Below, piece by piece: positions 57,488 through 61,834 of a DNA stretch of 64,000 nucleotides (the first letter of the stretch is position 1; each line of letters starts with the position of its first letter). The notes below the pieces were generated by a model that was given only the letters and a program-made list of their open reading frames with translations, was not told where the DNA came from and ran no database searches. Source of the stretch: an uncultured Spiribacter sp. (GTDB lineage: Bacteria > Pseudomonadota > Gammaproteobacteria > Nitrococcales > Nitrococcaceae); contig CALGDM010000028.1 of assembly GCA_937884605.1 (NCBI GenBank), positions 62,001-126,000 of the forward strand. Reading direction: 5' to 3'. The position numbers were made by a program, and so were the translations under genes.

Positions 57488-57563
57488 GGGGCCGTAGCTC
57501 AGCCGGGAGAGCGTCGCGTTCGCAACGCGAAGGTCAGGGGTTCGATCCCCCTCGGCTCCACCA
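57488..57563 (+). tRNA. tRNA-Ala (CGC)
   Basis: GGGGCCGTAGCTCAGCCGGGAGAGCGTCGCGTTCGCAACGCGAAGGTCAGGGGTTCGATCCCCCTCGGCTCCACCA; CGC anticodon; G3:U70 alanine identity pair. Confidence 0.96.
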
Positions 57564-58577
57564 ATCCCCGAATCGACTCACCCAGTCGCGTCCTGCTGCA
57601 CTGACCTCGACGGTCGTGAACGCGGGTGGGACGTTTTCGCCATCCAGGCTTATCCGCACGATCTGTGAACGCCGACGCGGCTGGAAAGCGCGCTGGAATT
57701 CCTCGGGCAGACGCACGGATAGTGGTCGCACGGCTTCGATTGTGCCTTCGATACGCTGGAACCCGTAACGGATTCTGACCCGGTCGCCTTCGGCCACTGA
57801 ATAGAGCGCGCCGGGTGGGGTATAGGCCAGGACATAAGGCTCGCCCACCACCAGGGTCATCAGGTTACCCGACTCGCCGGTGTGGCCGCCTGCCTTGACT
57901 TGACGATCCATGACGACACCATCGTGCTCGGCGCGGACCTGTCCGCCGTCAAATTGCTCGCGCAGATCATCAAGACTGCGCCCGAACCGCGCGACGATGT
58001 CATCAAGCGTGTCGATCTCGCGCGCTAATCCCTCCTCCCGGGCCTCGAACTCGGTCGCCTGCAGGGTGCTGCGGTAATCGGCCATCACCAGCTCATGCAG
58101 GGTCAGATTCGTACTCAGCCCTTCTTCGTAGGCCTTTTCGCGCAGACCAAGCAACTCGGCGATAGTCACCGCCTGATCGCGGGCGACCGGCAGCATGCGA
58201 GCAATGGTATAGCGCTCAGCCGCCAGCGCGGCCCGCCGACGTCGCCATTCCGCCCGCTGCGCCGCGAGATTGGCGATGTCACGCTGCACCGGCATCGATT
58301 CCAGCTCGGCCAACAGCTGCCCGGCCTGCACGCGGTCGCCTTCCCTGACATGCAGCGCCGTCACCCGCCCCGAATAGCTGACACTCACCGACACCTGATC
58401 CTGGGTCACCATCCCCGGCGCCGACAGATAGACGCGATCCCCGAAAAAGATATCCAGCAGCCACACCACCAGCGCCAGCAGCAGCAACAGATAGATCCAC
58501 CGCCCGATACGCCCTCGGTGAGTGCGCTGCTCGGTCTGCAAACGATCGACACGAGGGGGTCGGCGCAGACGATGCAT
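57534..58577 (-). CDS. HlyD/membrane-fusion-type protein (Alg44 C-terminal-like)
   Basis: N-terminal TM, biotinyl-lipoyl-like SGRVTALHVREGDRVQAGQLLAELES, coiled coil, MDRQVKAGGHTGESGNLMTLV; start overlaps the GT2 stop. Confidence 0.85.
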   Translation of the reverse strand: MHRLRRPPRVDRLQTEQRTHRGRIGRWIYLLLLLALVVWLLDIFFGDRVYLSAPGMVTQDQVSVSVSYSGRVTALHVREGDRVQAGQLLAELESMPVQRDIANLAAQRAEWRRRRAALAAERYTIARMLPVARDQAVTIAELLGLREKAYEEGLSTNLTLHELVMADYRSTLQATEFEAREEGLAREIDTLDDIVARFGRSLDDLREQFDGGQVRAEHDGVVMDRQVKAGGHTGESGNLMTLVVGEPYVLAYTPPGALYSVAEGDRVRIRYGFQRIEGTIEAVRPLSVRLPEEFQRAFQPRRRSQIVRISLDGENVPPAFTTVEVSAAGRDWVSRFGDWWSRGGSNP

Positions 58578-59836
58578 CAGAACCGATCCGCCGCGTCGCG
58601 GACTTTTGATGGCACGTACGGATCGGCATAGGAGCGGCGAAACACCCATTCATCCAGATAGGCGATCATGCGAATCCCTCGCTGCACAAACGTCGAGAAC
58701 AGAATCTGACCGGGCACATACAAAAGATACCCGAGCGGCGCACGCGAGCCGCTCATGACCCGGGCGACACCATAGACCAGCAGGCCCTGGAGGATGTAGA
58801 TGAGCAGGGTCGCGCCCAGCACCGTCATGGCGCCGTGCGGCCCCAGTGTCCAGAACAGCCAGACGATATAGACGTAGAAACTGATCGACAGAACCACCTG
58901 ATAGAACAGGATATTCGCCATTGCGAGGGCATTCTCCCAACGAAAGCCCCGCCAGAACGGGTCGAAAGCCGCGCCGTATTTGCGCAGCCGAAACCGGATA
59001 ACGCTGCGATTCCAGCGCAGCCGCTGACGGGTGAACCCGCTCAGCGTCCCGGGCACATCGGTCATCGACCAGGCATGCGGAGCAAACGCGACCGCCCAAC
59101 CGGCCCGCCGCAGCTTGTCGGTAATATCGGCATCCTCGCCGGGTCCGACATCCCAGCCCCCCGCCTGCCTGAGGGCCTGCTTTCGGAACACGCCAAAGGC
59201 CCCCGAGACAATCGACAGGATCCCCAGCGCGGCGGTGAATCGGCGTCCAAGGGCGATACTGGTTATATACTCAATCGCCTGAAAGCGCGCCATCAGGGTA
59301 GTCCCGGCATTACGCACGGCCAGATTGCCCGCTACCGCCCCCACCTGGGGATCGGCCATCGGGGCAATCAACTGCTCGAAGGCATCGCGATCGAAGGTGG
59401 TATCAATATCCACGATGCTCACCAGATCATGGCGGGCGTACCCCAGACCCATGTTGATGGCACTGGATTTGCCACCCCGGATGCCAGTGGACACCACCCG
59501 GTCGAGCTCGCCTCGACGCCGCAGCGCCCAGCCAATCTCGCGCATGCGGTCAACCGATCCGTCATCCACCAGAATCAGCTCCAGCTTTTGGTGGGTCTGC
59601 TCGGTGAGCGATCGAACGGTGCGCTGCAGGGCCTCGCCCTCATTGAACCCGACCAGCAAAACGCTGACCGCGGGGCGATGATGGCAGTCCGGTACGCGCC
59701 GTTCCCAGGGCGCTGCCATCAGAATGGCGAGAACGCTCAGGCCGTAGCGCGACAGATCAAAGATGACGTAGTGCCAGAACAGGTAGACAAACCCCTGCAG
59801 ATCGAGCTGACTGAGCAGGGCAATAGAGCTTTCCAT
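58577..59836 (-). CDS. Membrane GT2 family (processive-type) glycosyltransferase
   Basis: VSVLLVGFNEGEALQRTVRSL; VDDGS; DID; GEDADITDKLRRAGW; RQRLRW (QxxRW-type); multiple TMs. Confidence 0.9.
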   Translation of the reverse strand: MESSIALLSQLDLQGFVYLFWHYVIFDLSRYGLSVLAILMAAPWERRVPDCHHRPAVSVLLVGFNEGEALQRTVRSLTEQTHQKLELILVDDGSVDRMREIGWALRRRGELDRVVSTGIRGGKSSAINMGLGYARHDLVSIVDIDTTFDRDAFEQLIAPMADPQVGAVAGNLAVRNAGTTLMARFQAIEYITSIALGRRFTAALGILSIVSGAFGVFRKQALRQAGGWDVGPGEDADITDKLRRAGWAVAFAPHAWSMTDVPGTLSGFTRQRLRWNRSVIRFRLRKYGAAFDPFWRGFRWENALAMANILFYQVVLSISFYVYIVWLFWTLGPHGAMTVLGATLLIYILQGLLVYGVARVMSGSRAPLGYLLYVPGQILFSTFVQRGIRMIAYLDEWVFRRSYADPYVPSKVRDAADRF

Positions 59837-61170
59837 CAGCCGGTCAGTGCCTCGAGCACCGCAGCGGCGGCATCCACCCCCTCGGTGCGCTCGATGGTGA
59901 TTTCCATCGGTCCGGCCACCACCGCCTCAGTGGTATGCCGCAGACGCCGTGCAATGGCCTCGGTTTCGGCGATAGGGGTCTCGGGCAAGAGCACGTAGAC
60001 GATCTGGCCACGGGCTGTGACGGCATCGGTTTGGCGCAGGCATTCAGACAGCACATCCACCAGATGGGCAAAGACCTGCGAGAGACCCCGGCCCCCCAGC
60101 GTATCGCTGATCGCGTCGATGTTGTGCACGCGCACGACCAGTAACGACAATGGGCGCTCGTAACGCCGGGCCTGAGCCTGCTGGAAACGCAGTAAAGTAA
60201 TGAAATCCCTCACCCAGTAACCCACCGAGCCGCGGGCTACGCTCGCCTCGAGACTCAAATGCGGCAGAATGCCGCGATGCAGCGCCGCGACCCCGCCCGG
60301 GGTGATGGCGTAATGCCACCAGGTCCGCGTGTCCATCTGCTCGCTGTCGGTATGCCGATCGCAATCAGTGCATAGAAAACCAACGGCCGGGTCGCTGTTT
60401 TCGGTGCCGCAAGAACCGCATACAAAGACCATGCCCGGTTTATCGTAATCCACGCCGTAATGGCGCAGCAGGCGCTGACACTTGGGGCACTCCAGCGAAT
60501 GCCCACGCAGAAACTCGGACTCCGGCCCCTGGTAGGCACAGCGGTAGTGGTGGACGAGAGCGGCGGGTTTCAGATCGCTACTGCGGCATTCGGTGCACTC
60601 CTCGCGGACATTCAGACGCGAGCCCCCGCACGCCGGGCAGTAGTGGATGCAGTCGAATCGCTCCCGGGCCAGCAATTCCGTCGCGGCCAACTCCTCGAGC
60701 AGCGCCCGAGGGTTCTCGATGCCCCGCAAAGCGGCGTACCGGACGACCATCGGGCGGGTGAAATCCCAGGAGGCATGGAGAGGGGTCTGTCGCGAATAGG
60801 CCATGGCGAGCACGATCAACGCCTCGGTATCGGCCAATGCATCGATGTCCGGGAGTTGCGCGAGTCGCTCCAGCACGGGTCGGGCAACGCCAATCGCCTC
60901 GGCGAGCGCCGCCGGCTGCAGGCTGGGGACACTGTATAGCGCCCCTGACACTGAATGGCCCGAGGCATTGATCACGGGCATCAATGCCCCGTGCGCGGTG
61001 AGCGGGGTTGCGTCCAGCGCCTCGACCGGAGTGCCGGGCATGAGCACCGCCACATCAGCCTGCTCGGGACCATCGGCAACGGTATAGGCGTCGCTAAGCC
61101 AATCCGGGCGGGTCGTCTCCCCCACCATCCATAAACGAACGCGGGCGGTTGCAGAATCCATTCGCATCAT
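59836..61170 (-). CDS. Zinc-ribbon (TackOD1-like) protein with C-terminal degenerate GGDEF-like domain
   Basis: CPAC..CTEC..CPKC..CGSC..CTDC series; C-terminal PLSLLVVRVHNIDAISDTLGGRGLSQVFAHLVDVLSECLRQTDAVTARGQIVYVLLPET resembles GGDEF with the catalytic motif lost. Confidence 0.7.
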   Translation of the reverse strand: MMRMDSATARVRLWMVGETTRPDWLSDAYTVADGPEQADVAVLMPGTPVEALDATPLTAHGALMPVINASGHSVSGALYSVPSLQPAALAEAIGVARPVLERLAQLPDIDALADTEALIVLAMAYSRQTPLHASWDFTRPMVVRYAALRGIENPRALLEELAATELLARERFDCIHYCPACGGSRLNVREECTECRSSDLKPAALVHHYRCAYQGPESEFLRGHSLECPKCQRLLRHYGVDYDKPGMVFVCGSCGTENSDPAVGFLCTDCDRHTDSEQMDTRTWWHYAITPGGVAALHRGILPHLSLEASVARGSVGYWVRDFITLLRFQQAQARRYERPLSLLVVRVHNIDAISDTLGGRGLSQVFAHLVDVLSECLRQTDAVTARGQIVYVLLPETPIAETEAIARRLRHTTEAVVAGPMEITIERTEGVDAAAAVLEALTG

Positions 61171-61199
61171 CGCTTAGTGACTGTAAACTCAGTGTATAC

Positions 61200-61276
61200 G
61201 CCCCGATAGCTCAGCTGGATAGAGCAATCGCCTCCTAAGCGATAGGTCGCAGGTTCGAATCCTGCTCGGGGCGCCA
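61200..61276 (+). tRNA. tRNA-Arg (CCT)
   Basis: GCCCCGATAGCTCAGCTGGATAGAGCAATCGCCTCCTAAGCGATAGGTCGCAGGTTCGAATCCTGCTCGGGGCGCCA. Confidence 0.96.
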
Positions 61277-61285
61277 CTCACCCGC

Positions 61286-61834
61286 TCACGGCCCGGCCGT
61301 TATCCAGCCGATTGACGCATCGAGCGACCACTGCGCCTGCTCGGCATGCGCGTGCATCAGACGGAGTACCTCGTGGGCGTGGCTGCGTGTCAGGGACAGC
61401 CCGGCAATGGCAGCCGGTTCGAGGCGCTCATCCGGCATGCCCGGCAGCGGCTGGCCGAGTAGCGCAATCACGATCTGCTCCTGTTGACTCTCGACCCGGG
61501 CCTCCGTGACCAGCCAGTGCGTCCACTGCGTCGGCGCAGGCGGCGTCTCGGCCGCGCCGGATTCATCCTGATGACGCTGGGCGGCGACCTGCGAGCGCGC
61601 ACCGATGTGCTCCAGGGCCATCACCGCGTCATGGGCGGATTCGCCCTCGGCCGCCGGGTGGGAGCGTTTGAGTGTGTTATTGATCGGCTGCATGAGCCCG
61701 CGCAGCGCCCGCCGGGACAACCACGCCCCCCGGCCCTCGCCCGAGGCCATGGTCAACATCAGCCCAAGACGATCCTCAAGCGCGGAGTAAGTCATTCGAA
61801 TACGATTGGCACGGGGCAGGGACAGCTCAGCCAT
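61286..61834 (-). CDS. Hypothetical protein (182 aa)
   Basis: ORF filling the gap between tRNA-Arg and der; MAELSLPRANRIRMTYSALEDRLGLMLTMASGEGRGAWLSRRALRGLMQP; same strand as der. Confidence 0.65.
   Translation of the reverse strand: MAELSLPRANRIRMTYSALEDRLGLMLTMASGEGRGAWLSRRALRGLMQPINNTLKRSHPAAEGESAHDAVMALEHIGARSQVAAQRHQDESGAAETPPAPTQWTHWLVTEARVESQQEQIVIALLGQPLPGMPDERLEPAAIAGLSLTRSHAHEVLRLMHAHAEQAQWSLDASIGWITAGP

Follow-up and report, generated by a model that had tools for sequence, protein, structure and literature searches.

A probable c-di-GMP-gated surface-polysaccharide operon with a predicted TackOD1-GGDEF receptor in an uncultured Spiribacter

Results

The locus and its three genes

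We analysed a 64,000-nucleotide stretch (hereafter the window) of an uncultured Spiribacter sp. (assembly GCA_937884605.1, contig CALGDM010000028.1, positions 62,001 to 126,000), whose genome is a 1.8 Mb draft, 91% complete, in a genus with assemblies of 1.2-2.2 Mb. The subject is a group of three minus-strand genes, which a preliminary description had read as a minimal surface-polysaccharide system lying between tRNA-Ala and tRNA-Arg; a check of the window's open reading frame list located all three on that strand. Gene 1 (59836..61170, 444 aa) encodes a predicted cytoplasmic receptor of cyclic diguanosine monophosphate (c-di-GMP), on the basis of Pfam, an AlphaFold model, Foldseek and transmembrane (TM) prediction. 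Gene 2 (58577..59836, 419 aa) encodes a membrane family 2 glycosyltransferase (GT2) of the processive polysaccharide synthase type, as judged from Pfam and NCBIfam models, motifs and TM candidates, and gene 3 (57534..58577) a HlyD-type periplasmic adaptor with one N-terminal TM segment, assigned from Pfam, TM prediction and its junction with gene 2. The three genes are translationally coupled via two stop/start overlaps, as described before, and both of these minus-strand junctions read TGATG (59834..59838 between genes 1 and 2; 58575..58579 between genes 2 and 3). The first junction sets the GT2 start at 59836. The frame of gene 3 is open from 58649, a start that would add 24 residues, and 58577 is the most likely start because the TGATG junction lies there.

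The TackOD1-GGDEF protein

The domain assignments of the preliminary description were borne out by profile annotation in all three proteins. Gene 1 matches TackOD1 (4.1e-46) and GGDEF (3.1e-6) in Pfam. The TackOD1 zinc-ribbon domain (PF18551, residues 116-289, minus strand 60304..60825) scores 157 bits against a curated cut-off of 32 and has all ten CxxC cysteines together with the HxxxC pair; these cysteines and histidines are nearly invariant across the family and are its most invariant residues. The N-terminal region is divergent and no TM segment was predicted. The degenerate GGDEF domain (PF00990, residues 326-416, minus strand 59923..60195) has a fold backed by a profile match to solved GGDEF domains, and the AlphaFold model (mean predicted local distance difference test score, pLDDT, 81.8) gives Foldseek matches to GGDEF structures including 3ign and 5euh.

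The GG[DE]EF motif is absent from the window protein and from all 103 TackOD1 proteins compared, so that the signature of an active diguanylate cyclase is lacking. The RxxD inhibitory site is kept in 99 of the 103, the window protein included (R379-D382, minus strand 60025..60036), and a secondary arginine (R409 in the window protein, corresponding to PleD R390 in our own alignment) is Arg in 87/103 and Lys in 8/103. Gene 1 thus shows the sequence pattern of the PelD/BcsE-type receptors, an inhibitory site with a dead active site, and the earlier idea of a c-di-GMP-like sensor, although still a prediction, is strengthened.

The zinc ribbon raises the alternative of a metal or redox sensor controlling the synthase, with the GGDEF domain as a structural or dimerisation relic. 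The invariance of the TackOD1 Cys/His residues fits such a sensor, as do two congeners (L020, L021) in which a TackOD1 protein without GGDEF lies beside GT2 and HlyD; however, the retention of RxxD and of the secondary Arg/Lys in more than 90% of proteins, with the catalytic motif lost in all, makes this alternative unlikely. In those two congeners the genes form a compact unit headed by an NMT1-like binding protein (L020:6306-10272; L021:1-3916). Two other loci (L057, L087) have neither GT2 nor HlyD in the vicinity; there the gene for the TackOD1-GGDEF protein has a PhoR-type histidine kinase gene as its neighbour.

The GT2 synthase

Gene 2 matches Glycos_transf_2 (3.5e-26) in Pfam. Its nearest NCBIfam model is PgaC/IcaA (3.5e-49), at 168 bits against an equivalog cut-off of 422, and the nearest library models (PgaC, NodC, MftF) all remain under their cut-offs. 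The motifs of a processive enzyme are present, namely D92, DxD at 143/145, ED at 234/235 and QRLRW at 271-275 (invariant in the GT2 alignment), and hyaluronan and cellulose synthases are among the closest proteins of solved structure. None of the three proteins has a PilZ match in Pfam, which sets the operon apart from the PilZ type of alginate and cellulose systems; neither BcsB nor PgaB occurs among the window genes, and no pgaA, pgaB or pgaD was found near the window GT2, which argues against membership of a Pga system. These absences agree with the preliminary description.

Conservation of the gene linkage

A scan of GTDB with one genome per species gave at least 568 loci encoding TackOD1 relatives. 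The best 80 were mapped; since similarity to an operon-type TackOD1 protein was the basis of the choice, TackOD1 in other contexts is under-represented among them. GT2 and HlyD adjoin TackOD1 in 76 of these 80 loci: 71 have TackOD1, GT2, HlyD and a TolC-like channel (OEP), and five have TackOD1, GT2 and HlyD only. Among the four that remain, the contig stops within the GT2 gene in L091 and L135. The 80 loci come from Pseudomonas, Stutzerimonas, Nitrosomonas, Thioalkalivibrio, Legionella, Marinobacter, Desulfobacterota-type bacteria, Nitratidesulfovibrio, Synergistota, Bacillota, Anaeromyxobacter and a Sedimentisphaerales metagenome-assembled genome. The gene order is TackOD1-GT2-OEP-HlyD, and OEP-HlyD-TackOD1-GT2 in Synergistota and Bacillota; in the window operon TackOD1, GT2 and HlyD are direct neighbours on a single strand, with no OEP.

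In an even draw of Gammaproteobacteria, 17 of 369 genomes, the window's included, have TackOD1 at E<1e-40, and in 15 of the 16 others, whose loci were counted at E<1e-50, GT2 and HlyD lie beside it. Within the genus, TackOD1 and the GT2 (>470 bits) occur in the same nine genomes; G045, a tenth genome with TackOD1, has no GT2 of this kind but a PgaC-like one, in an operon that we read from its sequences as pga-type. Ten congeneric or same-order loci were mapped and the GT2 adjoins TackOD1 in all but G045; they occupy several unrelated chromosomal sites and, outside the sister species, share 26-39% identity with the window proteins. Replicons of Photobacterium and of an alphaproteobacterium also bear three-gene forms, and at least the counterparts of genes 1 and 2 are present on an Aeromonas plasmid. 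No recurrent fifth gene was found, the commonest neighbour cluster being an ABC ATPase (11 loci).

The recurrence of the three genes together in hundreds of bacterial genomes indicates that this is a real, scarcely described surface-polysaccharide system and not a chance neighbourhood. The linkage anticipated in the preliminary description is therefore conserved, and with no library model reaching the cut-off for a known pathway, its proposal of a minimal and poorly described exopolysaccharide system gains support.

HlyD and TolC-like proteins are common to drug and protein exporters, and GT2 and HlyD might instead make or export another product, such as a glycolipid or a substrate moved in type I fashion through HlyD and TolC. 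This is very improbable: the conserved core has no ABC, RND or MFS pump, GT2 being its sole inner-membrane partner; the GT2 has the motifs of a processive synthase, with PgaC, NodC and hyaluronan synthase as nearest profiles; and the channel of most relatives bears a GH18-like barrel, with a GH16 or galE gene beside some copies.

In G045 (L194:2751-13764) the TackOD1 protein is split (102 + 192 aa) and follows genes for a phosphonate-type binding protein and a CHASE8-GGDEF-EAL protein. It lies within a few kb of the pga-like operon, which suggests TackOD1 controlling another polysaccharide there.

The HlyD adaptor and the outer-membrane channel

Gene 3 matches HlyD_3 (1.6e-9) and Biotin_lipoyl_2 (2.6e-9), and its TM segment spans residues 46-76 when numbered from the 58649 start. 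The OEP is the product of a fourth gene that most relatives possess. Over some 450 N-terminal residues it matches OEP/TolC, and the model (pLDDT 90.9) has the TolC fold there (Foldseek to TolC 1e-15); the last ~250 belong to no Pfam family and contain an invariant LDxE (D559, E561) and a near-invariant E658. A sequence search of this C-terminal barrel against the PDB found no significant match, and a fold search, used for that reason, related the model to GH18 chitinases at E ~1e-4. The reading as a GH18-like hydrolase is tentative, because isocitrate lyase barrels match at similar or better E. The putative GH18-like barrel occurs as a fusion with TolC-like channels across several phyla (for example L126:13700-14461), and one OEP has an extra N-terminal AMIN domain (L058:10932-13442). 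Loci L061, L063, L065, L066 and L070 have another version of the channel, OEP2, which is more divergent and has the C-terminal domain in common with the first (hhalign probability 97.5%).

The fourth gene is missing from the window operon, as it is from the sister species L018, Legionella and others, which make up a three-gene minority. No OEP2-type protein was found elsewhere in the window's 91% complete genome, and the GH18-like barrel is absent from this genome and from eleven other three-gene or short-OEP genomes, in a search where two positive controls matched. A tolC with pcm-waaA surroundings is present in the genome, as is one further OEP (gene names read from sequences). The preliminary description, which saw no outer-membrane porin, was thus correct for the window operon; the system is not intrinsically porin-less, because most relatives have the TolC-GH18-like fusion. 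Of 71 loci with the classic OEP, 60 have a HlyD with the tip motif GAAT, against none of 16 that lack this channel (the five OEP2 loci being classed as lacking it), a distribution that fits docking of the HlyD tip on the classic OEP.

Insertion spot and neighbouring sequence

The flanking tRNA genes were confirmed on the plus strand as tRNA-Ala(cgc) at 57488..57563 and tRNA-Arg(cct) at 61200..61276, and the spacer between them lies between queA and der. Five congeners have a spacer of 19-52 bp, two have one of 1.4 kb containing an MFS-like gene, and in G051 it exceeds 8 kb; in the window (57563-61200) and the sister species it holds the three-gene operon. This variable content marks the spacer as a recurrent insertion spot, which the operon occupies here. 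The GC content of the operon is slightly low (63.3% vs 65.2%), and the search for direct repeats marking insertion at the tRNA gave only short chance-like matches.

The 3' end of gene 3 runs antisense into tRNA-Ala for ten codons (57534-57563), and the C-terminus encoded there, WWSRGGSNP, is also found in the sister species L018. The genes in the G051 spacer read like LapD and LapG (a reading of sequences; loci L187-L193 and L195 compared). Between der and tRNA-Arg an open reading frame of 182 aa (61286-61834), with no Pfam match, is kept at 58-83% identity in several congeners.

Discussion

Proposed mechanism

We propose that the operon is most probably a c-di-GMP-gated, synthase-dependent surface-polysaccharide system. 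In this mechanism the cytoplasmic TackOD1-GGDEF protein would bind c-di-GMP at RxxD, with the zinc-ribbon module acting as a scaffold or second sensor, and the bound form would activate the membrane GT2. The synthase would polymerise a nucleotide-sugar and extrude the chain across the inner membrane, and HlyD would bridge the periplasm to a TolC-type channel, which may be the dedicated TolC-GH18-like fusion in most relatives and probably the housekeeping TolC in the window's genome. With respect to the polymer, the GH18-like barrel on the channel hints at an N-acetylhexosamine (HexNAc), and a polymer containing HexNAc is a possibility that we rate at somewhat less than even, with a beta-glucan as the main alternative. 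Other hints are a GH16 gene beside one locus, galE beside one and epimerase-like genes near eight.

Several observations weigh against this proposal or limit the support for it. The RxxD and secondary Arg pattern of a c-di-GMP receptor is suggestive, not proof, because RxxD also occurs in 9 of 14 intact GGDEF proteins, a small local control. In favour of the linkage, the distances among 91 operons correlate at r 0.92-0.96 between the three proteins (permuted maximum 0.17), but these values are inflated in part by common organismal descent. The GT2 scores above 500 bits in operon carriers and no non-carrier genome exceeds 260 bits; such profile counts are partly circular because many of the test genomes went into the profile, and the gap between the two scores is all that is informative. 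Finally, the window operon has no dedicated channel, its HlyD tip has no GAAT and the genome is 91% complete, so the exit route given above for the window is a guess.

Published work presents TackOD1 as an output domain of archaea with undescribed function, occurring also in some bacteria (PMC5847659); the literature searched mentions it only in that two-component survey and as an accession in an unrelated paper. TackOD1-GT2-OEP-HlyD might represent a broad and unrecognised class of synthase-dependent secretion, present in several phyla and combining a zinc-ribbon/c-di-GMP receptor with a TolC-GH18-like channel, in which the 'thaumarchaeal output domain' would be at root a polysaccharide-control module; we consider the chances of this nearly balanced, slightly on the side of doubt. 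If so, an orphan domain named from archaea would gain a function and would be linked with the regulation of matrix production by c-di-GMP in Pseudomonas, Nitrosomonas, Legionella and others. It would also provide operonic evidence for polysaccharide exit through HlyD and TolC, a route proposed and still unproven in cyanobacterial cellulose export (PMC12430437).

Comparison with known systems

The dead GGDEF domain with RxxD resembles those of PelD and BcsE, which bind c-di-GMP and control polysaccharide machines (PMC8461298, PMC7439463). Unlike these, gene 1 has TackOD1 where PelD has GAF and BcsE has REC and N-terminal parts, and its partner is a single GT2 with HlyD instead of PelEFG or the Bcs complex. 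The poly-N-acetylglucosamine system PgaABCD has the library model closest to our GT2, PgaC, whereas the window has no PgaA, PgaB or PgaD and its GT2 remains far under the PgaC cut-off. The mixed-linkage beta-glucan genes bgsBA of Sinorhizobium/Rhizobium (PMC9495663, PMC5567048) also pair a GT2 with an HlyD-like protein, have no PilZ and are activated by c-di-GMP; here, however, c-di-GMP is sensed by the BgsA C-terminus and there is no separate receptor gene. The cyanobacterial XcsA-XcsB-TolC model for cellulose has the same tripartite route of synthase, HlyD adaptor and TolC, but XcsA has PilZ, TolC lies outside the operon, and this model is so far unproven (PMC12430437).

The closest likeness is to MxdABCD of Shewanella oneidensis, in which MxdA is a degenerate GGDEF protein that binds c-di-GMP, MxdB a GT2 and MxdC efflux-pump-like; an exopolysaccharide has been proposed for Mxd, and mxd mutants lose the three-dimensional biofilm for which the system is needed (PMC3409153, PMC3691769, PMC7666153, PMC11395469). 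The order of receptor, GT2 and adaptor is the same, so that genes 1, 2 and 3 would correspond to MxdA, MxdB and MxdC, and the forms found in Photobacterium and on the Aeromonas plasmid fit such a homology, which we consider likely from the published descriptions of Mxd. Against it, a zinc ribbon is not reported for MxdA in the four papers cited, and no gene of the window corresponds to MxdD. The window system is probably Mxd-like, a reading that has the same mechanism as the c-di-GMP-gated operon proposed here, is compatible with it and is already partly characterised. The earlier reading as a poorly described system accordingly stands as far as library models are concerned, none exceeding its cut-off, and less so in view of this possible characterised relative of the same logic. 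The TackOD1-GT2-TolC-HlyD module is undescribed in the literature searched, subscription papers being mostly outside its scope. The TackOD1 and TolC-barrel components of a Mxd-like system are probably recognised here, and if the link to Mxd holds, the module would give a concrete machine to the Mxd biofilm phenotype.

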